DNA of 64,000 nucleotides. Origin: Lachnospiraceae bacterium (GTDB lineage Bacteria > Bacillota > Clostridia > Lachnospirales > Lachnospiraceae). The stretch spans positions 124,001 to 188,000 of the forward strand of contig CAJTEY010000003.1 in the NCBI GenBank assembly GCA_910575775.1, in the 5' to 3' direction. Within the stretch, counting starts at the first letter, position 1. Every line of letters starts with the position of its first letter. Both the position numbers and the translations under genes were made by a program. This document shows positions 1,091 through 33,270 of the stretch, piece after piece. Below the pieces are notes generated by a model. It made no database searches, was not told where the DNA came from, and worked only from the letters and a program-made list of their open reading frames with translations.

Positions 1091-1600
1091 CTATAGTGCA
1101 AAATATTCCATGATCCTATCGGCTTGTTCACCCGGCAATATTTCTCCATCGTTTTCCAATATTAAGTCCGGGCGCATTGGTTCTTCTCCAATAATGTGTA
1201 TCCCCATGACATCTGTATTCCGTTCATTGGTCTTCCCACTGTATAGCCCTTTCTGGTCTCGCTTCTTTAAAGTGTGCATTGAAACTTTAATATAAATTTC
1301 CCTATAATTTTCAATGTATTTTCGATTCCATTCGCGCACACTCTCAAACATTGAGATCGTACAAATAACAATCGTTATTCCCTGTTCCGAAAGAAATTTA
1401 CACAATCGGGAGTACCTCATCGCACATTTTCGTCTGTCAGTTTCCGAATATCCCAAATCATCGCCAAATACCTGCCGCAATGTGTCTCCGTCCAAAAAGA
1501 CTGTTGCTGGATCATTCTTTTTTAACTTATTAAAAAAAATCTTTCCTATCGTAGTCTTGCCGGCTCCCGACAACCCGGTTATCCAATAAACACATGCCAT
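1091..1600 (-). CDS. CysC-like kinase, probable cytidine diphosphoramidate kinase (Cj1415-like)
   Basis: A 169-aa P-loop kinase of the APS-kinase (CysC) fold: Walker A GLSGAGKTT at residues 9-17, the family LDGDTLRQVF segment near 36-45, and a basic lid around 113-125. CysC normally phosphorylates the 3'-hydroxyl of adenylylsulfate, but no ATP sulfurylase or PAPS-using gene is nearby. Instead it directly follows homologues of Cj1416 and Cj1417. In C. jejuni the CysC-like Cj1415 phosphorylates the 3'-OH of cytidine diphosphoramidate to give the activated donor for phosphoramidate transfer. The same role is inferred here. Start ATG has GTGAGGA upstream; the preceding gene ends 8 nt away. Shorter than a typical CysC (~200 aa). 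Confidence 0.82.
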   Translation of the reverse strand: MACVYWITGLSGAGKTTIGKIFFNKLKKNDPATVFLDGDTLRQVFGDDLGYSETDRRKCAMRYSRLCKFLSEQGITIVICTISMFESVREWNRKYIENYREIYIKVSMHTLKKRDQKGLYSGKTNERNTDVMGIHIIGEEPMRPDLILENDGEILPGEQADRIMEYFAL

Positions 1601-1607
1601 AATATCC

Positions 1608-2387
1608 TCACTCTATTTCTGATTCAACTACACGAAGATCCCCCACATCGTCAATTTCAAACCAGCCCCGGTGTATATGAACTGCTTTTAACTTATTGCC
1701 TTCGTCAATCAGTCCCTGCAGTAAATCCGTCATATACATTTTCCGATATGTCCGGGCTGTTCTCCAAAGTGCGATCCCCTTTGCCGTTCTCTCTTCAGCT
1801 TCCTTCGCAAGACCAAGCATTGCATGCAGGCCTTCTCTTTGAAATCTCATCAGACCGATGTATTGGGATTGTACTCTTGCCAATTCTGTCGTCTTCTGCC
1901 CGATCTCGGTCAGATAATCATCCCGGTCAAACAGAAGCGTTTCCGCATCATCCAGCGGATTCCCGCACCGTTCGGACCAATAGGCGTACCATCCGTCATC
2001 CACAATAACAGAAGCGGCTTCGTCAGACGCCAGGATTTTTTTCAAAACTTTCTCATTATAAATGATATCCCCATAGGAAATTAAAATGTCGTCTTGACTC
2101 TCCATCAGTTCTCTCGCACACATCAGGGAGCATACCATGTTCGTTGTCCCATACTCCTCATTCACGATAATACGGATTTCGGTGCCTGCAAACCTGCTTT
2201 GCAGCACGTCCCCGCGATATCCGGCTACAATCGTTATGTCTGTATCCCGGATACCACATGCATGCATCGTATCAAGCTGTCTTTCAAGAATACTTCTTCC
2301 TTTTACTTCCACCATACACTTTGGCCTGTCATCCGTAAGGGGACGCAACCTTGTCCCCTGTCCTGCCGCTAAAATAATCACTTTCAT
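1608..2387 (-). CDS. CTP:phosphoglutamine cytidylyltransferase-like nucleotidyltransferase (Cj1416-like)
   Basis: A 259-aa sugar-nucleotidyltransferase-fold enzyme. The N-terminus has the diagnostic AAGQGTRLRPLTDDRPKCM motif (nucleotide-binding loop and catalytic Lys), and SYGDIIYNE supplies the metal-binding Asp. The family includes LicC/CTP:phosphocholine cytidylyltransferases. In C. jejuni, Cj1416 joins CMP from CTP to L-glutamine phosphate, giving gamma-L-glutamyl-CDP-amidate. The context (glutamine kinase, amidate hydrolase and CysC-like kinase in the same operon) points to that substrate rather than phosphocholine. I chose the ATG at 2387 because AGGA lies upstream and the glycine-rich loop begins immediately; the longer in-frame extension is Arg/Leu-rich and overlaps the hydrolase gene. 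Confidence 0.85.
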   Translation of the reverse strand: MKVIILAAGQGTRLRPLTDDRPKCMVEVKGRSILERQLDTMHACGIRDTDITIVAGYRGDVLQSRFAGTEIRIIVNEEYGTTNMVCSLMCARELMESQDDILISYGDIIYNEKVLKKILASDEAASVIVDDGWYAYWSERCGNPLDDAETLLFDRDDYLTEIGQKTTELARVQSQYIGLMRFQREGLHAMLGLAKEAEERTAKGIALWRTARTYRKMYMTDLLQGLIDEGNKLKAVHIHRGWFEIDDVGDLRVVESEIE

Positions 2388-2409
2388 TTCTGCACTTCCT
2401 TTATCCACA

Positions 2410-3009
2410 TTAACCAAATAAGTTCTTAATCCTGTCAATATCAGTTGCCTGATAAGGACTCTCCCTCTCCGGATGCCACATCGTAACAACAATATTCTTA
2501 TCCGGATAAGCTGCCGCCTCAATCACACCATCTTCCGTCCGGGCCATTGCCACGAGCGGATTCTTCAGTTCTTTACATGCCTGATTATGGAAGCTGTTTA
2601 CCTCCATGCTTCCCCATTCGCCGTCCACAGTATGCCGCAGCGCCACATGTCCCAGGACAGTCTCCATCTCACAGCCAAAATAGTCCAGGACAGACTGCAT
2701 CCCCCTGCAAAAACCATATAGCGGAATATTTCTTCGCAACGCTATCCCGATAAGCCGTCGGTCCGTTTCATCCCGCTCCGGCGCCGTTCCACCATATTTA
2801 ACGAGACTGTTTCCTCCTGTCAGCATAATTCCTGCGGGAGAAACCGTCTCCACAAACATATCCAGATCAGTTATCACATTAGGAACGGGTACCGGAAGAT
2901 ACCCGCATGCCTCTAAAAGCAGCGGTATGTTCTGATCCGTACAGTCTCTGCGTTCCCGATAGCTCTCCACAACTTCTACCCGCTGTGTATAAATCACCGT
3001 TCTCTTCAT
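2410..3009 (-). CDS. Class I glutamine-amidotransferase-like hydrolase, probable gamma-glutamyl-CDP-amidate hydrolase (Cj1417-like)
   Basis: A 199-aa class I amidotransferase/PuuD-type domain. The nucleophile elbow is YGFCRGMQ with Cys101, and the rest of the triad is His179 and Glu181 in MWHPERESP; the oxyanion strand is LTGGNSLV. Such proteins are usually annotated as gamma-glutamyl-GABA hydrolases, but the neighbours match the C. jejuni phosphoramidate pathway, where Cj1417 cleaves glutamate from gamma-glutamyl-CDP-amidate and leaves cytidine diphosphoramidate. The start has GAGGG 8 nt upstream. It lies 31 nt after the methyltransferase gene and 22 nt before the cytidylyltransferase. Confidence 0.85.
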   Translation of the reverse strand: MKRTVIYTQRVEVVESYRERRDCTDQNIPLLLEACGYLPVPVPNVITDLDMFVETVSPAGIMLTGGNSLVKYGGTAPERDETDRRLIGIALRRNIPLYGFCRGMQSVLDYFGCEMETVLGHVALRHTVDGEWGSMEVNSFHNQACKELKNPLVAMARTEDGVIEAAAYPDKNIVVTMWHPERESPYQATDIDRIKNLFG

Positions 3010-3040
3010 CCAAAATACCCTCTTCCCTTGTTGCCTACAT

Positions 3041-3790
3041 TTATCTGGCCTGCGCCATCCATATTCTTGTGGTATAAGGCACTTTCACATACCTGTCTCC
3101 TTTTGCTTCCACAACTCTGCGTATTTCCCGGTTAATCAGATCAAACTTGTCTCTCGACTGGCGCTGTACCGTACCATGGGATTTCCAACCCTCAATAAAA
3201 TCTTCTGTGAGGATATCATGTAAAACCGTTCCTTCGACATAAATCACTTCTCTAAACAGGTTACTCCGGTTAATAACCTCTGTCTGATCTTCCCTTCTGG
3301 TTCCGTAGCTGTAATCAGCAATCTGCGACTTTAGGATATCCTCTATCTCTTTCTGGAGTGGGTTATCCAAATCCCTGTGATTCCACATACAGGCAAACCA
3401 ACCATTATCTTTTAAAATCCTTCTGCTCTCTGTCAACGCTTCCTGCCGGTTACATACATTGAAGGAAGAACCGAACGTTACCAGATTAAATTTGCTGCTC
3501 TCCATTCCTGTATGTTCTCCGACTCCCTCGAACCACTGTACATTTTTATACGTTGCCGTCTTCTTTATACCGTTCTCACGCATGGCATCGTTTGGTTCCA
3601 CCGCACAGATATTTAGTCCGTATTCTGCCAGCTTTAAAGTCAGGTGAGCCGCTCCCGCTCCCACATCACAGGCTGTATCCCCCTTCTTCACACCCGAAAT
3701 TTCAAACATTTTTTCGATTGCACTTTGCGCATAACCCGGTCTTTTCAAATACGCCTCCGCAAGATCTGTGTAATCCCATTCTGTTTTCAT
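3041..3790 (-). CDS. SAM-dependent methyltransferase, phosphoramidate cassette (Cj1419/Cj1420-like)
   Basis: A 249-aa class I methyltransferase. It begins with a YTDLAEAYLKRPGY segment shared with its downstream-numbered neighbour, then SAM motif I ACDVGAGAAHL near 37-47 and the acidic end of strand 2 in AVEPNDAM. ATG at 3790 is chosen because AGGAGG precedes it by 9 nt. It is a divergent paralogue of the methyltransferase at 3880-4644, mirroring the paired methyltransferases Cj1419 and Cj1420 next to the phosphoramidate genes of C. jejuni. The likely job is O-methylation of the phosphoramidate or an intermediate; which of the two acts when cannot be told from sequence. No homopolymer is present in this copy. 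Confidence 0.82.
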   Translation of the reverse strand: MKTEWDYTDLAEAYLKRPGYAQSAIEKMFEISGVKKGDTACDVGAGAAHLTLKLAEYGLNICAVEPNDAMRENGIKKTATYKNVQWFEGVGEHTGMESSKFNLVTFGSSFNVCNRQEALTESRRILKDNGWFACMWNHRDLDNPLQKEIEDILKSQIADYSYGTRREDQTEVINRSNLFREVIYVEGTVLHDILTEDFIEGWKSHGTVQRQSRDKFDLINREIRRVVEAKGDRYVKVPYTTRIWMAQAR

Positions 3791-3879
3791 AGTACCAGTC
3801 CTCCTATTTTTTGTGTAATCTGACTTCAGATGCCGCAAAACAAAAGGACATGGATCTATCCTATCCAGACAGTCATAGA

Positions 3880-4644
3880 CTATTTACAGCTTTGCACTGT
3901 CCACGACCTGGAAAGATACGGAACCTCTATTTCATCGAATTCCTGAATAATCTCCTCGATTTTATTCAATATTCTATGAAACCCCTCTTCGCCTGCCTGC
4001 ACCTGAATATCATTTACAGACTTCCATGTATTCATATATCTTTCTTTCGTCATGAGCTCCACATGAGGAGCCTCCACGAAAAGAATGTTTTTAAAATATC
4101 CTTCATAAAGCAGTTTTTCTTTCATTTCCTCCATGGAAATCGCCTTGCCGGAAGAAACCCTTTTCATTTTCGGAACTTCGGCATAAACGGCATCCTCAAT
4201 TCTCTTGTGCAACTCACTGCCCTCAATATCCCTCGGATTCCAGATCGCCGTAAAAAAGCCGCCTGGAACCAGGATCCGATAGAACTCCTTCACTGCCAGA
4301 ACGCTGTCCGCCCAATGGAAGGAAGATCCCATCAATACCCAGTTAACACAGCTGTCTTCAAGCCCTGTAGCTTCCGCTGTTCCCTCAGACCACGATATAC
4401 CCCCCCCCCAGTTTTTTAGAGCCGCCTGACTGCGCATTGCAGCATTGGGTTCTACCGCATAGCCGCTAAGCCCGATCTCCGTCAGGTTTTCTGTCAGTTT
4501 TCCTGTACCCGCTCCGATATCAGCCACTTTACCTTCTCCGATACAGTTGAAAATATGATTCTTCAGACATTCCAATACTACCTTTGAATATCCCGGCCTG
4601 TTCTCATAAAACTTTGCCAACTCCGTAAAATCTCCATGCTTCAT
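3880..4644 (-). CDS. SAM-dependent methyltransferase with internal G10 tract, phosphoramidate cassette
   Basis: A 254-aa class I methyltransferase: FTELAKFYENRPGY at the N-terminus, SAM motif I VADIGAGTGKL, AVEPNAAM, and the family segment LMGSSFHWAD. Start ATG has AGAGAGG 7 nt upstream. The coding strand carries ten consecutive Gs that encode Trp-Gly-Gly-Gly at about residues 79-82. In this read the frame is open; gain or loss of one G would truncate the protein soon after, so the gene could be phase-variable. C. jejuni methyltransferases and transferases of the phosphoramidate locus also carry poly-G tracts. Paralogue of the 3041-3790 gene. Confidence 0.85.
   Translation of the reverse strand: MKHGDFTELAKFYENRPGYSKVVLECLKNHIFNCIGEGKVADIGAGTGKLTENLTEIGLSGYAVEPNAAMRSQAALKNWGGGISWSEGTAEATGLEDSCVNWVLMGSSFHWADSVLAVKEFYRILVPGGFFTAIWNPRDIEGSELHKRIEDAVYAEVPKMKRVSSGKAISMEEMKEKLLYEGYFKNILFVEAPHVELMTKERYMNTWKSVNDIQVQAGEEGFHRILNKIEEIIQEFDEIEVPYLSRSWTVQSCK
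4400..4409 (-). repeat. G10 homopolymer inside methyltransferase coding sequence
   Basis: Ten consecutive C on the plus strand (G10 in the coding strand), at codons for Trp-Gly-Gly-Gly. This is far longer than expected by chance in a mid-GC genome and lies about 235 nt into the gene. Tracts of this length are typical slipped-strand contingency sites in host-associated bacteria; length variation between cells is inferred, not seen. Confidence 0.9.
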
Positions 4645-4668
4645 ATAAAAACCTCTCTTTCCATTATT

Positions 4669-7029
4669 TTACTTCAAAATTTTAATTGTTTTAGATAAAG
4701 CATCAATTTCCAGCACCCTTACATTTTTGTATTTCTCATACAGTTTCTCTCCCACCCCTATCGCTGCTGGTATCCCAAGTTCCCCGGCACGGATTGCCAT
4801 ATGGGAATTAGCACCTCCGTACATTGTAATAAATCCTTTAATATGATGCGAAAAAATCCAATCATATCCTGGATCTGCACTAACAGTCAAAACAATTTTA
4901 TTCGTTATATCCTGATTTTTGATACCATCGCATAATTCTGCTATTTCACCACTTGCTTTATTCTGTGTAATATAATTTGCCTCTGTATCTAAATAATGGA
5001 ATCTCCACACCTCATCCGAATGAATCAGAATAGGAGGGAGGACTAATGTTTTGGTAAGCTCGTAATCTTTCCTGCCTTCATCAACTGACTTTTTTATAAC
5101 TTCGCCAGCATCTTTTGTTGTTGAATACAGGCGTCTTATTGCCTGAATGTCCAGATACGCACAGTCATCCCTTGTCAGTCCAAATTTTTCTCCCAGGTAT
5201 CCTATCATCTGTATTGCCTTGCTTAAACTTTTTGTAAAAATAAATTTGCCATATTCCCTGCCCGCAATTACAGTCTTAATAAAGTCCATCATTCTCAATA
5301 TATCGCTGTTTAATCCGCTTTCTATAAGCGCATCTTCTAAGCGATGCATCTGCTCTATGGACAGAGCAAATTTTTTTCTTTTCTCCAAATATTTGTCTGC
5401 CGGTTCCCGCTCTGTCCAGTCAAAATATAGATCTGGCGCTTCATCATAGCGTAGGGAATTAATGTCATATGTGCCCGGTCTTAGATGCCCATACTTATCC
5501 AAAAACAAATTTTTTGTTAATGTTCTAAAGTCATAGCCCATATCTGCATTAACTGTGTCAACATCGTTCATAAAGTTCTGGTAATCTTCTTTGGAGATAA
5601 TATTCCTTTTTTCCATCGACCGCAAAAGCTGTACCGCTATAAATGCCCCACGTGCAAGTCCCGCAAACGGTAATGTCCCATAACGTTTACAATCCTCTAA
5701 CAGCCAATAAATCTTTTCTATTTCCCCCATACTGCTGTCAATTATTTTTTGATAACGACTTTCCAAAATATTAATTTTTTCGTAATCTTTACGCCATAAT
5801 CCAGTATCTGAATTGATAATTCTATTTGTTACATTCCTCAACGCCGAAATAATGCATTCAAGTTCCTGATCTGAAAATCCGTGCTCTTTTAAAACACATA
5901 TTCGCTCTGGCAAATCCAAAGTGTAACAGGAAAAAACAATATCAAATTCTATCTTATCGTGCTTTGACGGATCTTGCTCCAATCTGTCCAAATAATAATT
6001 TACAAGCTTGTTGCTTATTTTCTCATCAAGTCCAGCTGGAATAAAAGAGTTAAAACTCACCCGGACATCTATGTATGGAATACCGCCAAAATTAATCATT
6101 AGCGGAAAGCTCCGCATATTGCGATACCCATAGTTATCTCTCTGGTATGCCCATACACTATCTGTAATAATTTCCTGATATAATGACATGGCTAATGGTT
6201 TGGGTCTTATCCCTATCATTTCAGCCGGATTCCAATCCGGCATGACCCCATATATACTCCTGTTGCCACATAGATACGGTTTTTCTGTTGCATTCCGATC
6301 CAGTTTTGTCTGGATCCGCTGTAACTCCCTATACTGTTTTTGATAATCTACCGGCTTTCCGCTGATACAGAGGGGGCGAACTTGGAGAATATATAGTTTA
6401 TCATCCTTTGTTAACGCAAATTCGACATCAAGATTATTCTGTCCAAATAATTCTTCTAATTGTTTCAGTGTTTTGCAAAGTCTCTCGAGATACTCTGGCA
6501 TCAGTCCTGATTCTTTTCCCTTAAAAACATATAACAACTTATTAGCACACCCATTTCCCGATGTGACCGCAGATGTGCCACCACTCTCATCATAATTAAT
6601 GACATAATAGTTCCCCAGCGAATTGGGATCTAAAGTAAACGCAACACCGCATATTTTCGTATCCCTCAGCATAGGCTGTACCAATACCTGGTTTTCACCA
6701 TCTTCACTGTCATAAGACATAATCACTTTATTTACCGCATCTGCGAATTGCTTTTCACCCTGCACATTTGCCACAGACGCGAATTTTCCTGCCTGTGAAC
6801 TTTCCTGTGTATCTTCATTGATCGCACTACTGCGAACAATAACTTCTTGCTCCCAATCTAACCATGTTTTTATATATTTTTCCACACAGCCATCTGTGTT
6901 AGTTTTCCATTCGTCTACAGAAAAATAGATCTGTGGCAATACGTATGCATACTTTAATTCATTTTGAATTCTCAGAAGGGTCTCCGCCTTTGTTCCAAAC
7001 TTCACCATATCAGCCAATTTCCTTTTCAT
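4669..7029 (-). CDS. L-glutamine kinase-like protein, PEP-synthase fold (Cj1418-like)
   Basis: A 786-aa protein with PEP-synthase/PPDK architecture: N-terminal ATP-grasp domain (VIVRSSAINEDTQESSQAGKF region near 65-85, ending with VEFALTKDDKLYILQVRPL), a long family-specific middle, and a C-terminal swivelling phosphohistidine domain with GGANSHMAIRAGELGIPAAI and the phospho-acceptor His at about residue 743. There is no PEP/pyruvate TIM-barrel domain, which excludes ordinary PEP synthase or PPDK. This layout matches Cj1418, which phosphorylates the amide nitrogen of L-glutamine with ATP, the first committed step to phosphoramidate. First enzyme of the cassette in transcription order. The ATG at 7029 lacks a clear Shine-Dalgarno; ATG at 7008, with AAGGA upstream, is an alternative start. 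Confidence 0.87.
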   Translation of the reverse strand: MKRKLADMVKFGTKAETLLRIQNELKYAYVLPQIYFSVDEWKTNTDGCVEKYIKTWLDWEQEVIVRSSAINEDTQESSQAGKFASVANVQGEKQFADAVNKVIMSYDSEDGENQVLVQPMLRDTKICGVAFTLDPNSLGNYYVINYDESGGTSAVTSGNGCANKLLYVFKGKESGLMPEYLERLCKTLKQLEELFGQNNLDVEFALTKDDKLYILQVRPLCISGKPVDYQKQYRELQRIQTKLDRNATEKPYLCGNRSIYGVMPDWNPAEMIGIRPKPLAMSLYQEIITDSVWAYQRDNYGYRNMRSFPLMINFGGIPYIDVRVSFNSFIPAGLDEKISNKLVNYYLDRLEQDPSKHDKIEFDIVFSCYTLDLPERICVLKEHGFSDQELECIISALRNVTNRIINSDTGLWRKDYEKINILESRYQKIIDSSMGEIEKIYWLLEDCKRYGTLPFAGLARGAFIAVQLLRSMEKRNIISKEDYQNFMNDVDTVNADMGYDFRTLTKNLFLDKYGHLRPGTYDINSLRYDEAPDLYFDWTEREPADKYLEKRKKFALSIEQMHRLEDALIESGLNSDILRMMDFIKTVIAGREYGKFIFTKSLSKAIQMIGYLGEKFGLTRDDCAYLDIQAIRRLYSTTKDAGEVIKKSVDEGRKDYELTKTLVLPPILIHSDEVWRFHYLDTEANYITQNKASGEIAELCDGIKNQDITNKIVLTVSADPGYDWIFSHHIKGFITMYGGANSHMAIRAGELGIPAAIGVGEKLYEKYKNVRVLEIDALSKTIKILK

Positions 7030-7066: not shown

Positions 7067-7948
7067 TCAGTTTTTCAGCAGTGCCATACTGCACCCGTCA
7101 CCTATCGGGGTTTTGGCAATGCGGATTCCCTGCTCCCGCTCAAACAGATCCACGGCCTGCTTCACGCCCTGGAATACATCCGAAAAATAATCGTGCAGTA
7201 AAATGCAGCCACCATCCGCCATCCTGTCCCAGAAATACCGCAGGCCGTTGAGCATCGGGACATAAAGATCCATGTCAAGGTTCACGAAGCAGAACCTGTC
7301 ATCCACCCCCTGCATGCTTTCCGGGAAATATCCTTTCCTTACCACGACATTCTGCGGGTAAGTCATTTTTTCCATCACGAGGCCGACCCCCGTTTCCGCA
7401 AAAAAATCCCGGTCCGCAAAGCGGCTCTTCCCAAAGTCCCCGCTGCCGGCCTTCTCATGCTGCATGTCGCTGCTGTCAAACCCCTCAAACGTATCGCACA
7501 GGTACAGCTTCCTGTCCGGGAAATAATAATTGATGAACTTCGCGCAGTCCCCCCGGAACACGCCGCATTCCGCCACATTTCCTTCTATTTTTTCACTCCA
7601 GATCCAGTCAGCATACCCGCTGATAAAACAGATCCTCTGGTCTATAAATAAATCCATAAACCGCAGATCCGCAAAGGCATTCACTACCTTATCCTGCGGC
7701 ACCCCCAGCTGCACTGCCTGCGCCTTTATCTGTCCTGCCGCTGACGGGCTGCCGGCCACAGTCAGCAGTATGTCAAATGTCTGGTCCGGCACCTGTTCCG
7801 GTGCAATGACCGGGACTGATAAAAGGCGCTGTCCCCACAGGCTTTTATTGTTATCCGTGCACGCCACGGTCTCATATTTTTCCGATATCAGCAAGTTCGG
7901 CAATACACGCCTGCCAAAATCCCCGCATCCCCACATGATTACTTTCAT
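7067..7948 (-). CDS. Rossmann module fused to TylF/macrocin-type O-methyltransferase
   Basis: About 293 aa. Residues 1-95 form a nucleotide-binding-like Rossmann module (MKVIMWGCGDFGRRVLPNL, then ACTDNNKSLWG), of the kind found at the ends of other proteins in this locus. Residues ~100-293 are a TylF/MycF-like class I methyltransferase (NVAECGVFRGDCAKFI, LCDTFEGFDSSD, VNLDMDLYVP, LLHDYFSD). It probably methylates a sugar or its modification on the glycan. The ATG sits 6 nt after a G10 tract that acts as its Shine-Dalgarno. Upstream in-frame starts (GTG 7987, ATG 7978) would run through the G10 as Gly-Gly-Gly, so length changes could switch either the frame or the ribosome spacing. Confidence 0.8.
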   Translation of the reverse strand: MKVIMWGCGDFGRRVLPNLLISEKYETVACTDNNKSLWGQRLLSVPVIAPEQVPDQTFDILLTVAGSPSAAGQIKAQAVQLGVPQDKVVNAFADLRFMDLFIDQRICFISGYADWIWSEKIEGNVAECGVFRGDCAKFINYYFPDRKLYLCDTFEGFDSSDMQHEKAGSGDFGKSRFADRDFFAETGVGLVMEKMTYPQNVVVRKGYFPESMQGVDDRFCFVNLDMDLYVPMLNGLRYFWDRMADGGCILLHDYFSDVFQGVKQAVDLFEREQGIRIAKTPIGDGCSMALLKN

Positions 7949-7954
7949 GGTGTT

Positions 7955-7964
7955 CCCCCCCCCC
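7955..7964 (-). repeat. G10 homopolymer in the translation-initiation region of the TylF-like methyltransferase
   Basis: Ten Gs on the coding strand end 6 nt before the methyltransferase ATG, in the short gap after the glycosyltransferase stop at 7999. No other good Shine-Dalgarno is present, so the tract itself must pair with the 16S anti-SD, or else the true start is upstream and the tract is coded. Second G10 of the locus. Confidence 0.88.
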
Positions 7965-7998
7965 TGTTTCCTGCTCATTTCTGTCACCGCCGGACAGC

Positions 7999-9393
7999 TT
8001 ACATAAATGCCCCAATAACCCTGGCCAGATTTTCTTCAAACACATCCATGGAAAAATGCTGTTCATATATCCGTCTGGCATTTTTACCCATCTGCCCCAG
8101 CCTGTCCCGGTGCTCCACACACCATTTAATCTTTGCAGACAGTTCCTGCGCATTCTCATTTTCAAAAACCAGTCCGTCCCCGTCCTGTATGTATGCTGCC
8201 GTTCCCACGGCATCCGACAGGATGCAGGGCACCCCGTGCATCATGGCTTCTGCCGCTACGGTGGGCATGGGATCTTCCCTGGACGGGCAGACCATCACAT
8301 CTGCCCGGCTTAAGATCTTCCCGAGTTCTTCCCTGTCTACAGGCCCCGTCACAGTCACCCCCGAAAAATCCCTCGCCTGCTCCTTAATCCTTTCTGCCAA
8401 TAAAGACGTATCTTGCCCAACCAGATAAAAAACCGCCTTTTCCCTTGCACTCTCATCCAGCATCCTGACCGCACGCAGGAGAATGTCCTGTCCCTTCCTC
8501 TCTTCTATATGGCCGACTGTTACAAAACAGGTTTTTTTCGCTTCTTCCTGCCGGCAGATCTCTTTCCTTTCTTCACTTCCCGCACAATCCTCCACTCCAT
8601 ACAGGAGCCGGCCCACTGCCAATTCCGGCACCGTCTCATGGATGACCTGTTCAGGGACCGGCCCTACAGAGAGCACCGTAAGATTTTCCTGTGGAATCCT
8701 GCGCAGCATCTCTTTGTCCACGCCGTCGTAAAAAAAGGACGAGTCATGCAGCCACCAGACCACCGGGATCTCCAGGTCACGTTCCGTAAGGAAGATATAA
8801 TACCCCACCGAATTGCACAGGATGAGGGAAAATCCTGACAGCCACCCTGTCTCCCGCATCGTTGCAAGCTGGAGGTTGGGGTCTATCACTACCGGGATGC
8901 CATAAAGTTCCGCCTGCTTTCGCAGGGGCCCGTCCATCATGGAAGCTAGCAGAATCGGATATCCCCGTTTTTTTAAGGCCCTGGCCATCTGGAACAACGC
9001 AATGGCAGTTCCCCCCAGGGCCAGGTCCGTCGACAGGAGGGCAATCCCTTTTTCCTCGTCATCCCACGGCTCCCGGCCCGGAATCCCGTAATACGCAATA
9101 TCCTGTTTATTAAGGGTCACAAGCCTGCGGAGGTCATAAAAGTGGTAGATGTTTTCCTCATCAGCGCCCAGCTCTATAAGCTGCTTTTTCATGGCTTTCA
9201 CATGAAAGCTCATGATAATAACCGCATCGTATTCTTTCGCAAGTCCCTCCTGCGGGGAAAGCACCTCATGACCATCCATAATGGTATGCTGCTTTACCGG
9301 CGAATTGTCAATCAGCGCTGCAATGGCCTCTTTTGCGAGCCATTTCTTAAACCGCTGGTAATATTCTCCCGTTCCAAAAACAAGCAGTCTCAT
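7999..9393 (-). CDS. Glycosyltransferase family 4 with N-terminal Rossmann module
   Basis: A 464-aa protein. Residues 1-~95 are a Rossmann-like module (MRLLVFGTGEYYQRFKKWL, ALIDNSPVKQ). The rest is a GT-B GT4 enzyme: an N-terminal half with STDLALGGTAIALFQMARAL, and a nucleotide-sugar-binding half with VGHIEERKGQDILLRAV and CPSREDPMPTVAAEAMMHGV. It adds a sugar from a nucleotide donor to the growing surface glycan, likely on the cytoplasmic face. Fifteen nt separate it from the upstream GT2 gene. Donor and acceptor are unknown. Confidence 0.88.
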   Translation of the reverse strand: MRLLVFGTGEYYQRFKKWLAKEAIAALIDNSPVKQHTIMDGHEVLSPQEGLAKEYDAVIIMSFHVKAMKKQLIELGADEENIYHFYDLRRLVTLNKQDIAYYGIPGREPWDDEEKGIALLSTDLALGGTAIALFQMARALKKRGYPILLASMMDGPLRKQAELYGIPVVIDPNLQLATMRETGWLSGFSLILCNSVGYYIFLTERDLEIPVVWWLHDSSFFYDGVDKEMLRRIPQENLTVLSVGPVPEQVIHETVPELAVGRLLYGVEDCAGSEERKEICRQEEAKKTCFVTVGHIEERKGQDILLRAVRMLDESAREKAVFYLVGQDTSLLAERIKEQARDFSGVTVTGPVDREELGKILSRADVMVCPSREDPMPTVAAEAMMHGVPCILSDAVGTAAYIQDGDGLVFENENAQELSAKIKWCVEHRDRLGQMGKNARRIYEQHFSMDVFEENLARVIGAFM

Positions 9394-9407
9394 CTTCCTC
9401 TCTCCGC

Positions 9408-10559
9408 CTAAAGCGTTATCCTTTCCCTTTTCATTGAGGCAAGCAGATCCGTAATGCTGCAGATCCGTGTCTCCGTCATCGTCTCCAGTTCTGCCTTGAT
9501 GCTCTCTTCCGCCTCCGCCAGAGAAATAAGAACCAGATCCACAGACGGCAGACCTGCCTGCGGCAGATATACCGGAATCTTCTCCTCCAGATACGCCGCA
9601 TTCCTGTCAATAAAATATCTGACCTGTATCCCGTTTTTCTGCAGGCGGTAATACAGTCTCTTCCCAATATAACTGTCCCCGTAGATCGCAACGCTGTTCA
9701 CTCCGGCACGCTTCAGATACTGGTGAAGATACCGTCCTTCTTCCTGCTGCTTCATCCAGTCATCATAGATAAAAAACATTTTCTGAAACTTGCTCAGCAG
9801 CCTGATATGGTCTTCTGCCGCTGCCCGAACGGCTCCCCGCAGCTTTGCCAGTTCCCCCGGAGAAAAGAGACCCGCTGACGCCGCGGCATCATAAACTTCC
9901 TGCTCCGACGCCATCATATGTACCGCATTGATTGACTCATTTTCACCTTCCACCACATGTTCAAATAAGATTTCCGGGTTCAGTGCAAGTTCTGCACCCG
10001 CTCCCAGCATACACAGCCACAGCAGCCAGTCATCCGCACCATTGTTACTTAATCTGGTGTTCTTCCAGACTGCCGGTATCTTATCCCTCCTGATCAGTAC
10101 CTGTCCGGGAGAGATAATGGAATTTCTGACCGAGATGATAAAATCTCTGGTAATCACCCGTTCAAACGGCATCCTCGTATCATAAAACTGCCTTCCCTCA
10201 TGCAGCAGTTTACAGACCACCGCATCCGCCTGCCCCAGACAGGCAAGCTGACTCACAAAATAGCCCGGCCGGATCCTGTCATCCTGATCCAGGAAAAGGA
10301 CATAGTCCCCCGTACACTGCTCCAGTCCCCGCACCCTGGCTCCGTGAATACCCCTGTTTTTTTCCGTTTCAATCACCTTGGTTTCCATCATCTCTGAAGC
10401 CAGATTACCTACCGGCTCAGACGGATCATCATTCACGAAAAGAAGTTCCAGTGCACACACACTGTCACACTTCGCTGCACAGTCCTCTATCTGTGCAATC
10501 ATGCCATCTATGTATTTTCCACCGCGATAGATTGGTACGATTATACTGGTTTTTTCCAT
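9408..10559 (-). CDS. Glycosyltransferase family 2 with C-terminal Rossmann module
   Basis: A 383-aa protein. The N-terminal GT-A domain begins SIIVPIYRGGKYIDGMIAQIE, with VNDDPSEPVG and the DXD-like LDQDDR motif near residue 95. After a helical linker, residues ~285-375 form a Rossmann module (VNSVAIYGDSYIGKRLYYRL, YFIDRNAAYLEE, VDLVLISLAEAEE). The same module is N-terminal in the neighbouring enzymes, so its placement here at the C-terminus shows it behaves as an independent unit. Cytoplasmic glycan assembly is the likely role. Confidence 0.87.
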   Translation of the reverse strand: MEKTSIIVPIYRGGKYIDGMIAQIEDCAAKCDSVCALELLFVNDDPSEPVGNLASEMMETKVIETEKNRGIHGARVRGLEQCTGDYVLFLDQDDRIRPGYFVSQLACLGQADAVVCKLLHEGRQFYDTRMPFERVITRDFIISVRNSIISPGQVLIRRDKIPAVWKNTRLSNNGADDWLLWLCMLGAGAELALNPEILFEHVVEGENESINAVHMMASEQEVYDAAASAGLFSPGELAKLRGAVRAAAEDHIRLLSKFQKMFFIYDDWMKQQEEGRYLHQYLKRAGVNSVAIYGDSYIGKRLYYRLQKNGIQVRYFIDRNAAYLEEKIPVYLPQAGLPSVDLVLISLAEAEESIKAELETMTETRICSITDLLASMKRERITL

Positions 10560-10583
10560 ACAGTCTCCGTCACATCAGCTTTG

Positions 10584-12734
10584 CTATTCCTTTATCAGAC
10601 TCTCATGTATATACGTCTGTTCTGTCGCCCCGTTACAGATCATCAGATACCCGTTTTCATTGAGCAGTTTTTTAATTCCTCTGATCTTGTCCACACTGTC
10701 CGGGAACATCCTCGCATGTGTTTCCAGGCAGAGCTGGTCGAATCTGACACCCGATCCTAGAATCTCCGGCAGGGCCAGGAACTCCGAACCTTTCACATCC
10801 ATCTTCAGAATATCAAGATGCCCGAATCCGAACTTTTTCATCAGTGTTGCAAGACGGTACATTTCAACCGTAATTGTCTTCTCTGATGTCCAGGCCGCAA
10901 AATACTCCGAGTAGTCTGTGTAAGCCTGATCGCTGTTCGGACAGTGAAACTCCTTTTCCCCATCCTGGTCCGACAGTCCATAAGGAAAATAATGCAGCTT
11001 TTCCGGCACATCACTATCTTCCATATATCTGATTACCTCAGGCGTCGGATCAAAGGCATATACTACCGCTCCATATTTTTCCGCCAGCTCTTTTTCAAAA
11101 GTGTAATCAAATCCTACTCCAAACGAAAAACAGACGGGATCTGTCACTCCTTCTAAATGACTTTTAGCCAGCCGGAACGGCATATTTTTTCCACAAGGCA
11201 CCAGTTCCATTTCCACATCTTTTTCACCCTGCAAAAAGGCGGGCAGATTTCTGTAATACTCCACCCCATGATCTTCCAGTGCTGCCACTACACGTTCCTT
11301 TTCCTCCTCGTCATCCATGGAGATGACAAACGGGTTTTGTCCAAAACGCTGCACTGCCATTTCCAGATTTAACACCTGGCACCCCTTAAACAGGGTAATC
11401 TGATCCGCCACTTTATCACAAAATGCATCAACGTGAACATTCTGTTCCGTCAGCATTTCAAAGTTTTTTGCTCCCCTTAAGTTCACCCCATAAATTACAA
11501 CTGACTGGTTTCTGTTTAGCATTTGAACCTTCCTCCCGGATATTTTAAGTCTTTCCCGCAATGGTGCAATAAACCGTGCAATCACTGCATCGTAAATGAC
11601 AGCCGAGTCGTTATAATCCTTCAGCCGGTTTAAATATAAAGTGTACCATTCTTCCGGACTTGCTTTTATATCTTTCAAGTAGCCATATCCCCTCCGGCAT
11701 GTTTTATAATGCAGTTCTTCCCCCGATCTTGTGAAATAGTGGTTTATACGGATCTTTTCACAGCACCCGTCAGGAAAAAGCATGTCTGTAATATATGATC
11801 CCTTTTCACTCAGACAGGCAAAACCAGCAATATAATCCATGTGGTGTGGATGGCACTTCTGTACTGTCCTCGGATTTGCAACTGTTTTGATATGGGCAGA
11901 TTCTATCCTCTCTTCCCCCAGCCGGTGCATATAGTTTTCAATCACCAGTCCACCCGGCCGTTTCTTATGCCCGCTCGTTCCATATACACGCCAGTTAATT
12001 CCTACTCCGCCGCCGAGCAGTTTCTGTATACCATAGGATTTCATTCTCTCCCGGTGTCCATCCAAAATCCCGTCCAGCATTCCCATAAGCAGCTCATCTG
12101 CCGGACTGTCTACCGGCACAAGAAATTCATCCACATCTATAATTGCCATATACTTGCTTTCAAACTTATAGTGGTCTACCGCATGCTGATATGCCTCTGA
12201 CTGTCCGTCTGTCCAGTATTGATATGTCACGGTATCCTGTTCTATGTATTCTGTAAGAAACTCTCTCAGATCATCTGTGCTCTCATTATCATAAATATAA
12301 AAGTGATCTACTCCCAGCATCCGATGGTATTCCATCCACTCCCTCAGATACGATGCTTCATTCTGGATAATCAAGACAATAGAAAGCCCATATAAATACG
12401 TGCCCTCAAAATATGTCTCATGAAGATAATCTATCAAAGAAACCACTTTTTTTCCGTCAATGCCTTTCTCTGACAGCGACATCTGTATTTCCCGGAAATA
12501 CCTGTTAGTCGTTACTACAACAGAATCATAAGAATCATTTGGAACATCACATATATCCTGTATGATATACGTCTGATGTCCTACCTGTATTTCTTCCCCA
12601 AAACGGTCTGCATTGCCATCACAAAGCGCGATAATATCTGCTCCCATCTCTTTTGTCAGGCTGTCATACAAAGAGGCCTGTCCAAAATAGACACGAAAAT
12701 CTTTCCCAATTCCGTAAATGATGATTTTTTTCAT
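10584..12734 (-). CDS. Multidomain GT92-like glycosyltransferase fused to FkbM methyltransferase
   Basis: A 716-aa protein. Order of domains: an N-terminal Rossmann module (MKKIIIYGIGKDFRVYF, ALCDGNADR); a GT92/DUF23-type glycosyltransferase at ~110-400 (VLIIQNEASYLREWMEYHRM, FYIYDNESTDD, AIIDVDEFLVP); a second Rossmann module at ~430-520 (SVVIYGVNLRGAKNFEML); and an FkbM methyltransferase from ~540 (SFGVGFDYTFEKELAEKYG, YAFDPTPEV, LDILKMDVKGSEF). The start at 12734 forms an ATGA overlap with the previous stop. It may both attach a sugar and O-methylate it or its neighbour. Substrates are unknown. Confidence 0.82.
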   Translation of the reverse strand: MKKIIIYGIGKDFRVYFGQASLYDSLTKEMGADIIALCDGNADRFGEEIQVGHQTYIIQDICDVPNDSYDSVVVTTNRYFREIQMSLSEKGIDGKKVVSLIDYLHETYFEGTYLYGLSIVLIIQNEASYLREWMEYHRMLGVDHFYIYDNESTDDLREFLTEYIEQDTVTYQYWTDGQSEAYQHAVDHYKFESKYMAIIDVDEFLVPVDSPADELLMGMLDGILDGHRERMKSYGIQKLLGGGVGINWRVYGTSGHKKRPGGLVIENYMHRLGEERIESAHIKTVANPRTVQKCHPHHMDYIAGFACLSEKGSYITDMLFPDGCCEKIRINHYFTRSGEELHYKTCRRGYGYLKDIKASPEEWYTLYLNRLKDYNDSAVIYDAVIARFIAPLRERLKISGRKVQMLNRNQSVVIYGVNLRGAKNFEMLTEQNVHVDAFCDKVADQITLFKGCQVLNLEMAVQRFGQNPFVISMDDEEEKERVVAALEDHGVEYYRNLPAFLQGEKDVEMELVPCGKNMPFRLAKSHLEGVTDPVCFSFGVGFDYTFEKELAEKYGAVVYAFDPTPEVIRYMEDSDVPEKLHYFPYGLSDQDGEKEFHCPNSDQAYTDYSEYFAAWTSEKTITVEMYRLATLMKKFGFGHLDILKMDVKGSEFLALPEILGSGVRFDQLCLETHARMFPDSVDKIRGIKKLLNENGYLMICNGATEQTYIHESLIKE

Positions 12735-13813
12735 TTCTTGACTCCCCTGACAATTCCTCTGCACAGTCTCGTCGACACATAATTCTGTCTTACCATCTGC
12801 GGGAACCACATGTATCCTTTTGCGGCAGAAAATGCCATACCATATTTTGTAAGCGCATCTTTAATTAGTATTTCATCAAAATCTCCGTGATAAGCGCATA
12901 TGGCACACTTTAAGTCTGGCGATCTGGATATTAGTTCCTCGGCTCCCAGCAGAGCATCCCACTCGTTCCCTTCTATATCCATCTTTATGAAATTGACAGG
13001 TTCCTGTATCATAGAATCCAGTCTGGCATACTTCCCTAAATCCAGAGAAGTCACAAACTTATTCATAATTACAACTTTGTCTTCATAATCCTTAAAAGTT
13101 TCCTTAAGCGCCTCAATCCATTCCTCATCCGATTCTATTATGTACAGCCTGGAAACCTTGTCGATAATCTGTATCGAAAAATTCCCTTCCGCAACACCAA
13201 CATCTACCACCACATCTCCATTTTTTACGCAAAAACTATCGTCCATATATTTATGCGGTGACTCTGGATCCTGTTCAGTCAGAATGCTCCTATAGTAATC
13301 AGCTACCATTTCCCTGGTATTCAACGATCTTGCAAAGTACAGGCGTTTATCCCCATAACAGATAAAATGCATTCCACAAACTTCATCAAATCCAATATCA
13401 AAATCCATATCTTCATATTTTTTTACAAAATCATAATTAAATACCTGTAAATCATTTTGCTCCAGCCGCTTTAATATCCCTATAATTTCTGGATCCTTGC
13501 TGCCAAGGTACCGTTTTACAACACACTGTTTATAAAAGAAATTCATTGTCTCAACAGTCGCCTTGATTTTCGGAAAATCCCGCCTGATCTGCCTTTCTAT
13601 CTCTTCATACCGCGCCGTTACTATCACAATTCTATCCGGCGGTGTCTTATGTAAAATGTTCGGTGAATAAACTTTTCCTCCACAAAACATGTTTCCTATT
13701 TTCTCAGGATCATTATCGATAAAACCCAGCACATCATACATGCTCCGAATATCACACTGCCTCAGCGCCTGTCTTGCCAGATTGCCGGTTCCCCAGATAA
13801 ATATTTTTTCCAT
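12731..13813 (-). CDS. FkbM family methyltransferase with N-terminal Rossmann module
   Basis: A 360-aa protein. Residues 1-~95 are a Rossmann module (KIFIWGTGNLARQALRQCD, GFIDNDPEKIGN, RIVIVTARYEE). From ~145 an FkbM methyltransferase follows (VVDVGVAEGNFSIQI with SAM motif I, YIIESDEEWIEAL, VNFIKMDIEGNEWDALLGAE). The start at 13813 overlaps the preceding stop as TAATG, so translation is coupled. Predicted to O-methylate a sugar of the glycan. Confidence 0.87.
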   Translation of the reverse strand: MEKIFIWGTGNLARQALRQCDIRSMYDVLGFIDNDPEKIGNMFCGGKVYSPNILHKTPPDRIVIVTARYEEIERQIRRDFPKIKATVETMNFFYKQCVVKRYLGSKDPEIIGILKRLEQNDLQVFNYDFVKKYEDMDFDIGFDEVCGMHFICYGDKRLYFARSLNTREMVADYYRSILTEQDPESPHKYMDDSFCVKNGDVVVDVGVAEGNFSIQIIDKVSRLYIIESDEEWIEALKETFKDYEDKVVIMNKFVTSLDLGKYARLDSMIQEPVNFIKMDIEGNEWDALLGAEELISRSPDLKCAICAYHGDFDEILIKDALTKYGMAFSAAKGYMWFPQMVRQNYVSTRLCRGIVRGVKK

Positions 13814-15150
13814 TAACCGTTCTCCGTCCGTTCTTTGTTTCGTTTCATGTTCCACACACCCGCTTCTGCTACAATCTGTTTTCTGTATTCATCTTCCCAA
13901 TCCGCATTTCTTCCTGTCATATCATTTGCGCATCTGCCTTTTTCTACCTCAGCCACCATCTTACCCGGGATGGCAATTCTCTGATCCACACCTCTGATGT
14001 ACCATTCGTACTCATTATCTAACTGCCCAATATCAAGCGCCTGATATCCGGCAAGGGCCAGATCATAGGCAAGTACCGTTGCTGTCGGGCCAAGCGAAAT
14101 GCATACCAGTGTGTCCTTTCCTGCTTTTTCTTTAACCGTTCGCAGAATATCTTCATATATATTCCATGCATTTTTCTCCGGGCATTCGATCCGGCTGACT
14201 CCTTTTGCTTCCCAAAACAGATCATTACCCACACCAATCCGCGATTTCCTTCCTTCGACAAGAAGCACATCCCTGCCCTGCCATATCTTTTTAAAAAGAC
14301 CGAAAATTGTTTTTGCGTGTTCTTTGTCTCGGTAAATAATATACGGTCTGGAAACATATGCATCATAATAAACACAATCTTTATCAAGCAGTGCACAAAT
14401 CTCCTGCCTGTTGGGAACCATATATTCCCTTATGTCATCCGCCATCTTTTCCTTATATTTTTCAAGCGTTCCGAAATTATCCGCCAGCGCAACAATGACA
14501 TTATCCCGTTTAGAGACAATGATTTCTCTCAGCCGGCCGGCCAGTGCATTATCCTCCTTTTGAAACCACGCCCTATCACGATGCAGCATAATCTCAAACT
14601 CGCCATCGCCGTATCTGCAAAGCGAGCATCCTTCTGCTATAATACGGTTTAACAGGTCTTCTGCACTCCTGATCCGTACAGCCGGTTCTCCCGCCAGTCC
14701 CCACTCAAATGGTGCATTCAAATATCTGTTCCTGTATCTGTCACATCTCTTTTCTGCCTCCAGCACTCTGTCCGCACGATTCCTAAATACTCCTGCCGCG
14801 TCTTTATCCCTCCAGTAAGTTACAATCTTTTCTTTTGGGATCCCCATGTCGCTACACTGTTTTTCAATACCAGTATAGTTTTTCGGGGAAATAAACACAT
14901 AATCAAACGCAGCCTGACTGAGGAGCTCCGGCGGTGAAATATGCAGGCCATGCTTCCATTCTGTTCCCTGCTTTTCGGTATCCGAATCAACTACTCCCAC
15001 TACAATACATTGTTCATTGTCAATCTCTGGATAAATAAAATCTGCATAATATCCCGCTCCCCATATGTACACCTTATTCTTGAAAATTTCCTTGTCGAAA
15101 TTGTGTTTCGCGTCTGTAAGCATATCATCCATACCCCATATCATTTTCAA
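13813..15150 (-). CDS. GT-D fold glycosyltransferase (DUF1792-like) with N-terminal Rossmann module
   Basis: About 445 aa. An N-terminal Rossmann module (KVYIWGAGYYADFIYPEID, GVVDSDTEKQG, AAFDYVFISP) is followed by a domain with SLCRYGDGEFEIML near residue 180, the signature of GT-D/DUF1792 glycosyltransferases known from serine-rich-adhesin glycosylation loci, and by LVCISLGPTATVLAYDLALAG. The start is uncertain: the frame opens with TTG at 15150, and ATGs follow at 15144, 15132 and 15123 with weak ribosome sites. Likely adds a hexose in the cytoplasm. Confidence 0.82.
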   Translation of the reverse strand: MKMIWGMDDMLTDAKHNFDKEIFKNKVYIWGAGYYADFIYPEIDNEQCIVVGVVDSDTEKQGTEWKHGLHISPPELLSQAAFDYVFISPKNYTGIEKQCSDMGIPKEKIVTYWRDKDAAGVFRNRADRVLEAEKRCDRYRNRYLNAPFEWGLAGEPAVRIRSAEDLLNRIIAEGCSLCRYGDGEFEIMLHRDRAWFQKEDNALAGRLREIIVSKRDNVIVALADNFGTLEKYKEKMADDIREYMVPNRQEICALLDKDCVYYDAYVSRPYIIYRDKEHAKTIFGLFKKIWQGRDVLLVEGRKSRIGVGNDLFWEAKGVSRIECPEKNAWNIYEDILRTVKEKAGKDTLVCISLGPTATVLAYDLALAGYQALDIGQLDNEYEWYIRGVDQRIAIPGKMVAEVEKGRCANDMTGRNADWEDEYRKQIVAEAGVWNMKRNKERTENG

Positions 15151-15193: not shown

Positions 15194-16378
15194 TTATGGT
15201 TTCCTCCAGACAAAACGATCCACAATGCCAGTATAGCTCTGAATAATCTTAACCACCTTCGTGCTGACATTTTTTTCACTGTAATCATATACCGGCGATG
15301 CCGGTTCCCCGTCCTCGTTCATCGTAACCGCCAGTTCCACCGCCTGTAATAACGATTCTTCACTGACTCCCGCCAGCACAAAATTCGCCTTGTCCATGGC
15401 TTCCGGTCTCTCGGTAGACGTCCTTATGCATACAGCCGGAAAACTGTGACCGCTGGCCGCATAAAATGCACTTTCTTCCGGCAGTGTGCCGGAATCGGAC
15501 ACCACAACAAAAGCATTCATCTGCAGATTGTTATAATCAAAGAAGCCTAAAGGCGCGTGCCTTATAATCCGTTTATCCAGAGCAATCTCCGACTGCTCTA
15601 TTCTTTTTTGTGAACGGGGATGGCAGGAATACAGAATCGGCATGTCATATTTTTCCGCCAACGCATTCAGCGCGTTAAACAGAGAGCGGAAGTTTTTTTC
15701 CGAATCTATGTTTTCCTCCCTGTGCGCCGAAAGCAGAATATATTTTTTCGGTGCCAGCCCCAGTCTGTCTATGATATCCGAACGCATGATTCCATCCAGA
15801 TTGTTGCTAAGTACCTCTGTCATCGGAGAACCCGTCACAAAAACCCGTTCTTTAGGCAGTCCGCATTCGTGCAGATATTTCCGTGCGTGTTCGGAATATG
15901 CCATATTTACATCGGAAATGATATCCACAATACGCCTGTTTGTCTCTTCCGGCAGGCACTCATCCTTGCATCGGTTGCCCGCTTCCATGTGAAAGATAGG
16001 TATATGAAGTCTTTTCGCTGCAAGAACGGACAGACAGCTATTGGTATCTCCCAAAACCAGCAGCGCATCCGGCTCCGTTTCCCTCATCAGCTTATAGGAG
16101 CAGTTGATAATGTTTCCGTATGTAGCCCCGGGATCGTCCCCGGCTGCATTCATATAAACTTCCGGCGGGGCAATCATTAATTCTTCAAAAAAAACGCCGT
16201 TCAAATTGTAATCATAATTTTGTCCCGTATGCGCCAATATGCAGTCAAAATATTTCCTGCATTTTCCGATCACGGCGCTAAGCCTTATAATTTCAGGCCG
16301 CGTCCCCACGATAATTAAAAGCTTTAACTTTCCATTATCCCTGAAACTAACGTCTCCATAATCCAATTTCATGTCCAA
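15194..16378 (-). CDS. fnlC: UDP-GlcNAc 2-epimerase family, UDP-L-FucNAc pathway
   Basis: A 394-aa non-hydrolysing UDP-sugar 2-epimerase (WecB/CapG/FnlC family): LLIIVGTRPEIIRLSAVI, AHTGQNYDYNL, VLGDTNSCLSVLAAK, HMEAGNRCKDECLPEETNRR, LLSAHREENID and the C-terminal VVSDSGTLPEES. With FnlA and FnlB directly upstream it completes UDP-N-acetyl-L-fucosamine synthesis (2-epimerisation of UDP-2-acetamido-2,6-dideoxy-L-talose to UDP-L-FucNAc). TTG at 16378 has GGAGGAG 7 nt upstream and is preferred over the ATG two codons on. Confidence 0.93.
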   Translation of the reverse strand: MDMKLDYGDVSFRDNGKLKLLIIVGTRPEIIRLSAVIGKCRKYFDCILAHTGQNYDYNLNGVFFEELMIAPPEVYMNAAGDDPGATYGNIINCSYKLMRETEPDALLVLGDTNSCLSVLAAKRLHIPIFHMEAGNRCKDECLPEETNRRIVDIISDVNMAYSEHARKYLHECGLPKERVFVTGSPMTEVLSNNLDGIMRSDIIDRLGLAPKKYILLSAHREENIDSEKNFRSLFNALNALAEKYDMPILYSCHPRSQKRIEQSEIALDKRIIRHAPLGFFDYNNLQMNAFVVVSDSGTLPEESAFYAASGHSFPAVCIRTSTERPEAMDKANFVLAGVSEESLLQAVELAVTMNEDGEPASPVYDYSEKNVSTKVVKIIQSYTGIVDRFVWRKP

Positions 16379-16411
16379 GCCAAGTCTCCTCCTACCCTGA
16401 TGATGAATTCC

Positions 16412-17611: not shown

Positions 17612-17614
17612 GCC

Positions 17615-32002: not shown

Positions 32003-32038
32003 ATGGCTGTGTCTGCCTCCCGGTTTTTCTGATATCAT

Positions 32039-32067
32039 TTCGCAGAATTGGATATTCTGCGAATTTT
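32039..32067 (+). repeat. 29-nt hairpin repeat, copy 1 (5' of dead tnpB)
   Basis: Sequence TTCGCAGAAT, five-base loop, then ATTCTGCGAA and TTTT. It forms a 10-12 bp stem. It is identical over 29 nt to the reverse complement of 34321-34349 and diverges outside. Here it lies in the 5' untranslated region of tnpB on the minus strand, directly after a second hairpin (TTTTAGCT/AGCTAAAA) at the integrase 3' end. Confidence 0.9.
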
Positions 32068-32097
32068 AGCTGTTTAATAGCTAAAAGCACCCATTTG

Positions 32098-33234: not shown

Positions 33235-33270
33235 ATGCATTTCTCCTTTCTGACCACTTTTTTGACCACA

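Follow-up and report, generated by a model that had tools for sequence, protein, structure and literature searches.

We analyzed a 64,000-nucleotide stretch (here, the window) of the genome of a gut Lachnospiraceae bacterium (GenBank assembly GCA_910575775.1, contig CAJTEY010000003.1, positions 124,001 to 188,000), and conclude, with good though incomplete confidence, that an operon at its start makes a phosphoramidate group and transfers it to a surface glycan by means of a sulfotransferase-fold protein. A first-pass annotation of the window had described a six-gene cassette resembling the one for O-methyl phosphoramidate (MeOPN) in Campylobacter jejuni, and that observation is confirmed: all six open reading frames are intact and lie next to one another on the minus strand, with gaps of 7 to 89 bp, and are transcribed in the order glutamine-kinase-type enzyme (GK), two methyltransferases (MTs), hydrolase, nucleotidyltransferase (NT), and CysC-like kinase. 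The proposed route would lead from L-glutamine through 3′-phospho-CDP-phosphoramidate to surface glycan. The NT would join the GK product with CTP, the hydrolase would take off glutamate to leave CDP-phosphoramidate, and the CysC-like kinase would add a 3′-phosphate, giving a donor similar to 3′-phosphoadenylyl sulfate (PAPS); the sulfotransferase-fold protein would then move the phosphoramidate, probably O-methylated by one or both MTs, onto a hydroxyl of a glycan built by adjacent glycosyltransferase and FucNAc-type genes. We infer the chemical steps, the acceptor, and the methylation from observed gene content, protein families, catalytic residues, operon layout, synteny, and gene fusions, and from the finding of no ATP sulfurylase over cut-off. 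Because family scores, active-site conservation, synteny, fusions, and this lack of ATP sulfurylase all point the same way, an activated-phosphoramidate pathway, as first proposed, is supported as the predicted function over readings as adenylyl-sulfate (APS) kinase, gamma-aminobutyrate (GABA) hydrolase, and phosphoenolpyruvate (PEP) synthase.

The GK (786 amino acids [aa]; positions 4669 to 7029, minus strand, as for all genes below) consists of an ATP-grasp-like N-domain, a central domain, and a C-terminal phosphohistidine domain. Pfam reports PPDK_N and PEP-utilizers on it and nothing else, and the PEP-binding barrel is missing. The protein scores 960.7 bits against NF004508 (cut-off of 501) versus at most 76 bits against PEP synthase models and 48 bits against the rifamycin phosphotransferase (Rph) model. 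H743, within the motif GGANSHMA, is near-invariant across 84 homologues, as is a long central stretch (e.g., WNPAE and KYGHLRPGTYDI); both the missing barrel and a histidine near position 743 had been recognized in the first-pass annotation. Grouping with PEP synthases or rifampicin phosphotransferases, which it had named as evidence to the contrary, was not seen (960 versus 76 and 48 bits). In a tree, 81 GKs formed a single clade on a stem of 1.56, apart from 18 PEP synthase-like proteins, with a node support of 0.18, so the separation rests on the bit-score gap. A PEP synthase identity was rejected on the family scores and the missing barrel. Glutamine kinase of the Cj1418 type is EC 2.7.3.13, the class to which GK presumably belongs. 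A PDB sequence search returned no solved structure named glutamine kinase or gamma-glutamyl-CDP-amidate hydrolase.

The hydrolase (2410 to 3009), a putative gamma-glutamyl-CDP-amidate hydrolase of class I amidotransferase fold, carries a Peptidase_C26/GATase domain and the expected triad of C101, H179, and E181, which is invariant in one comparison and at least 93% conserved over 65 homologues in another. Among NCBIfam models, it scores highest against NF045546 (gamma-glutamyl-CDP-amidate hydrolase): 104.2 bits, below the cut-off of 250 and 58 bits ahead of the runner-up (46 bits); hydrolases from diverse other phyla also pick this model first, at 94 to 129 bits. The NT (259 aa; 1608 to 2387), a putative CTP:phosphoglutamine cytidylyltransferase, has the Pfam domains NTP_transf_3 and NTP_transferase, and its best PDB match is CTP:phosphocholine cytidylyltransferase 1jyk (5.6e-13). 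Its start was corrected to ATG 2387, the listed start at 2522 being too long. Across the six genes, the domain calls of the first-pass annotation agree with Pfam (APS_kinase-like, NTP_transferase, Peptidase_C26/GATase, two Methyltransf_11, and PPDK_N plus PEP-utilizers).

The CysC-like kinase (1091 to 1600; APS_kinase-like in Pfam), a putative CDP-phosphoramidate 3′-kinase, scores 176 bits against NF004041, over the cut-off of 127, and 117.2 bits against the apsK equivalog TIGR00455, under the cut-off of 138.7. No ATP sulfurylase over cut-off was found in this genome (97% complete) or in seven cassette-bearing congeners; several of these eight genomes are incomplete, making the absence strong but not absolute. 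The Sat type (PF01747) had no match in this genome, and CysD-like matches in this genome and the congeners were far under cut-off. Since a cell lacking ATP sulfurylase would make neither APS nor PAPS, the CysC-like kinase and a 3′-phosphonucleotide-dependent transferase would need another nucleotide, and by analogy CDP-phosphoramidate 3′-phosphate would fit that place. This genome also has a second APS_kinase-like domain (locus L140; G000:C6, ~144880), fused to a methyltransferase and adjoined by a LicD-family gene.

Within the genus, a strong GK was found in 8 of 37 genomes, this one included, and a strong hydrolase (at least 331 bits; next 72) in exactly those eight. The GK loci of several genomes of the genus match named Lachnospiraceae records exactly, in agreement with the placement of this genome in that family. 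In a phylum sample of 398 genomes, GK was present in this genome only. Among named genomes, at least 553 GK relatives were found, which overturns the initial treatment of the cassette as a near-unique find; the best 80 of these span Bacillota, Pseudomonadota, Acidobacteriota, Planctomycetes, Spirochaetes, Verrucomicrobia, and others, with no Campylobacter record among them, and GK also occurs on fourteen plasmid records. Named carriers of the gene set include Anaerotruncus colihominis DSM 17241, Azospirillum lipoferum 4B, and Eubacterium sp. 14-2. On the A. lipoferum 4B plasmid, the genes are labeled PEP-utilizing enzyme, GABA-hydrolase family, phosphocholine cytidylyltransferase family, adenylyl-sulfate kinase, and methyltransferase, matching the prediction that routine annotation would name them APS kinase, GABA hydrolase, and PEP synthase.

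Gene neighborhoods were compared at 61 well-covered loci (of 85 nonidentical GK loci) with at least 4 kb on each side, counting neighbors within 9 kb; the association statistics carry no correction for phylogeny. NT was present at all 61, the hydrolase at 60, and the kinase at 56, and because hydrolase and NT so consistently stand beside GK, the cassette is conserved far beyond chance. In 13 loci, mostly from acidobacterial records, the kinase is fused N-terminally to GK in a single polypeptide of ~955 to 1,098 aa (L086, L093, L094, L099, L101, L114, L118, L119, L123, L124, L127, L129, and L133). The five well-covered loci lacking the kinase also lack an MT and the sulfotransferase-like gene described below. 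Minimal cassettes of GK, hydrolase, and NT only were seen at L092, L121, L125, L132, and L083, with hosts including Treponema, a Spirochaetia bacterium, Bacteriovorax, and an Acetatifactor metagenome-assembled genome (MAG).

Three other GK loci stood out. On a Vibrio alfacsensis plasmid (L148, 7374 to 13036), GK has a 210-aa N-terminal extension that by eye resembles a degenerate nucleotidyltransferase; hydrolase, NT, and a CDP-glycerol-phosphotransferase-like gene follow GK, and cysD and cysN adjoin. A Cupriavidus taiwanensis conjugative plasmid (L150) carries a GK-family gene (896 bits, NF004508) ~7.5 kb from nifK, with neither hydrolase nor NT annotated beside it. A 6-kb viral-binned contig (L147, IMGVR_UViG_3300027864_000720) carries the one match from viral contigs, a partial GK homologue with 34% identity.

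The first-pass annotation had ended the cassette at position 1091, overlooking a seventh gene, the likely transferase, into which the operon extends. Its ATG at 1080 lies 10 bp beyond the kinase stop and is preceded by AGGAG; the first 360 of its 912 codons (1 to 1080) lie in the window, and the gene then leaves it, reaching position -1658 (G000:C3:122343). The sulfotransferase-fold domain of this predicted phosphoramidate transferase covers approximately residues 420 to 760. A domain profile of the family matched CurM in the PDB (4.9e-14) and also tyrosylprotein sulfotransferases, and a domain model of a Lachnospiraceae homologue (L078; pLDDT 84) returned sulfotransferases in all top 50 rows of a fold search, with CurM at Z 14.7. 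A model of a whole 832-aa homologue had a pLDDT of 57 and weak fold matches. Pfam Sulfotransfer_3 was found in 24 of 37 relatives, and the 3′-phosphate-type R...S motif (R...GS) is retained in the protein encoded here. The family profile (A5) has a single match in this genome, at the seventh gene (E = 6.5e-73). Five of the eight cassette-bearing congeners carry the family versus none of the 29 without the cassette (P ~ 1.3e-4, calculated by hand, again uncorrected for phylogeny). It is the fourth commonest neighbor group of GK (38 loci, within 8 kb) and occurs in 29 of the well-covered loci, every time with an MT (29/0 versus 18/14; Fisher P = 2e-5). It also always occurs with the kinase (P = 0.054 with fusions counted and 9 kb instead of 5 kb as the distance limit), an association that is not significant with separate kinase genes only (P = 0.11) and that we do not rely on. 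The seventh-gene protein probably attaches phosphoramidate to a surface sugar. Directly upstream of GK in Paenibacillus kobensis (L109:2799-5564) is an apparent AMP-binding-enzyme fusion of 922 aa that ends in a sulfotransferase-like domain.

The two SAM methyltransferases, A (249 aa; 3041 to 3790; Methyltransf_11, 4e-12) and B (254 aa; 3880 to 4644; Methyltransf_11, 5e-13), are paralogues with ~33% identity; the start of A is probably ATG 3790, with the listed TTG 3838 too long. The family lies within 9 kb of GK in 47 of the 61 loci, always accompanied by the kinase, and in one Lachnospiraceae locus (L060) an MT is fused to GK. One or both MTs probably make the phosphoramidate O-methylated.

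Upstream of the cassette, the same gene run continues in a surface-glycan context with a TylF-type methyltransferase (7067 to 7987; PF05711, 4.7e-18), followed by glycosyltransferases (GT4, GT2, a GT92/FkbM fusion, and GT-D) and an FkbM methyltransferase (7999 to 15150), and by FnlA-, WbjC-, and WecB-like genes for a UDP-FucNAc-type sugar (15194 to 18673). The FnlA-like gene scores 510 bits against TIGR04130 (cut-off of 730), the WbjC-like gene 347 bits against NF047837 (cut-off of 500), and the WecB-like gene 212 bits against TIGR00236 (cut-off of 210). The first-pass annotation was right about the kind of these genes and wrong in placing them next to the cassette, as they lie ~8 to 12 kb upstream with the glycosyltransferases between. 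In Pseudomonas and a gammaproteobacterial MAG (L102, L106, and L111), the cassette follows a Flagellin_N gene (FlgL-like, confirmed for L102:8260-9936), which suggests a flagellar glycosylation island. In the genome studied here, flagellin genes are on other contigs than the cassette, so flagellin as the acceptor is without support. A weak C2185-like_N match (PF22674) was seen in both the GT-D glycosyltransferase (13813 to 15150) and the C terminus of the seventh gene. Farther upstream of the glycan genes, a TnpB-like gene (Cas12f1-like TNB domain; 30698 to 33240, minus strand) adjoins a phage-type integrase.

Given the Pfam APS_kinase domain and the sulfotransferase fold, one might expect a sulfation locus, in which a true APS kinase makes PAPS for a downstream PAPS-dependent sulfotransferase and the PEP synthase-like and hydrolase genes are incidental; the cysD and cysN genes adjoining the GK-hydrolase-NT set in V. 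alfacsensis agree with this. For the window, we consider such a locus extremely unlikely, in view of the kinase score under the apsK cut-off, the 13 fusions of kinase to GK, and the conservation of GK, hydrolase, and NT together with the kinase. A sulfation role for the CysC-like kinase and the sulfotransferase-fold protein is not likely because neither this genome nor the seven congeners have an ATP sulfurylase over cut-off, and APS kinase with sulfation was rejected on this genome content and on the GK-kinase fusions. It is also improbable that the pathway supplies a small phosphoramidate natural product instead of a glycan decoration. Secreted metabolites with P-N bonds are known (PMC6429109); however, surface-glycan genes flank the cassette, in Pseudomonas a Flagellin_N-domain gene (FlgL-like) precedes the cassette, and no peptide synthetase gene was noticed among the cassette's neighbors in the genome studied here.

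Several points weigh against the reading that the seventh-gene protein places phosphoramidate on a surface glycan. NF045546 scores under its equivalog cut-off in every hydrolase scored, Pfam finds no Sulfotransfer_3 in the seventh-gene protein of this genome, and its P-loop is FSGN (SGN) versus RSGS in other phyla. The enzyme activities are predicted from sequence, and the likeness to Cj1415-Cj1420 is drawn from NF045546 (below cut-off) and pathway logic, not from direct alignment with the Campylobacter proteins. At 32 of the 61 well-covered loci, no member of the sulfotransferase-like family lies near the cassette, which means that there must be other transferases. This absence and the altered P-loop would agree with a reading in which activated phosphoramidate is made but transferred by another protein, e.g., one like a glycosyltransferase or a CDP-glycerol phosphotransferase; V. 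alfacsensis has a Glyphos_transf-like gene after NT, and Cj1421 and Cj1422 were initially annotated as glycosyltransferases. For the locus studied here, we regard this as unlikely, since the seventh gene is translationally close to the kinase and specific to cassette-bearing congeners, its protein retains 3′-phosphonucleotide motifs, and the genome shows no PAPS source. Finally, the transferred group may be unmethylated, with the MTs modifying a sugar or other acceptor. Knockouts of Cj1419 and Cj1420 left the capsule structure unchanged (PMC11800397), Xanthomonas and Shewanella lipopolysaccharides reportedly carry unmethylated phosphoramidate (PMC3907429), and 14 of the 61 loci have no MT. The MT-GK fusion at L060, and the finding that among these loci no MT occurs without the kinase and no sulfotransferase-like gene without an MT, argue for an O-methylated group instead, leaving the unmethylated group a doubtful but serious possibility.

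More broadly, phosphoramidate on surface glycans, perhaps flagellins, may be widespread and transferred by a sulfotransferase branch that switched from PAPS to 3′-phospho-CDP-phosphoramidate, a generalization for and against which we see about equal grounds; such a branch would explain why the pathway has a CysC-like 3′-kinase. Beyond that reason for the kinase, the seventh gene provides a candidate transferase, open to experimental test, for this and related loci, and the named carriers make the pathway testable outside a pathogen. The genomic association also argues that the neighboring MTs, whose counterparts in Campylobacter are without assigned roles, belong to the pathway. In Campylobacter, the phosphoramidate group is a phage receptor, so commensal glycans with phosphoramidate may be relevant to recognition by phages and by the immune system. 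A 2022 review calls glutamine kinase C. jejuni specific (PMC9561416), whereas we find one core gene set across many bacterial phyla, with annotations like PEP-utilizing enzyme, GABA hydrolase, phosphocholine cytidylyltransferase, and adenylyl-sulfate kinase. The transferase proposal could be the new part; the wide distribution of the gene set may have been noticed earlier.

Among known systems, PEP synthases and rifampicin phosphotransferases have ATP-binding and phosphohistidine domains in common with GK, which differs in lacking the PEP barrel and in its distinct conserved central domain. CysC/APS kinase and PAPS sulfotransferase systems share the kinase fold, the 3′-phosphonucleotide logic, and the sulfotransferase fold; unlike them, the system described here comes without an ATP sulfurylase over cut-off, and its kinase, which scores below the apsK cut-off, is tied to a glutamine-kinase-type enzyme by linkage or fusion. 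In the type A flagellin glycan genes of Clostridioides difficile (CD0241-CD0244), an enzyme like CTP:phosphocholine cytidylyltransferase activates a phospho-amino acid for a glycan; the chemistry is that of phosphothreonine with a TagF-like transferase, and the portion of the report consulted names neither glutamine kinase nor hydrolase (PMC10714395). A paper on a Clostridium botulinum flagellar island (PMC2674064) was rejected as prior art, as it merely cites a MeOPN paper. Outside Campylobacter, a MeOPN-type cluster has been predicted, from structure, in Borg elements, which are archaeal extrachromosomal elements (PMC12660748); we liken it to ours by description, not sequence. The pathway of C. 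jejuni and the transferase role of Cj1421/Cj1422 have already been published, and the product of Cj1415-Cj1418 is reported to be CDP-phosphoramidate 3′-phosphate, likely the C. jejuni donor (PMC11800397). Donor synthesis is assigned there to Cj1415-Cj1418 only, so the first-pass description of a whole MeOPN set was sound for the enzyme types and overstated for the MTs, Cj1419 and Cj1420 being without assignment. As in C. jejuni, kinase, NT, hydrolase, and GK are co-located here in a surface-polysaccharide context, with Cj1419/Cj1420 beside Cj1415-Cj1418, and the hydrolase best matches, though below cut-off, the model named for the C. jejuni pathway enzyme. The gene order departs from that of Cj1420-Cj1415 in that GK and the pair of MTs have traded places; in contrast to C. 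jejuni, moreover, the host is a Gram-positive member of the Lachnospiraceae, and a sulfotransferase-fold gene follows the cassette.

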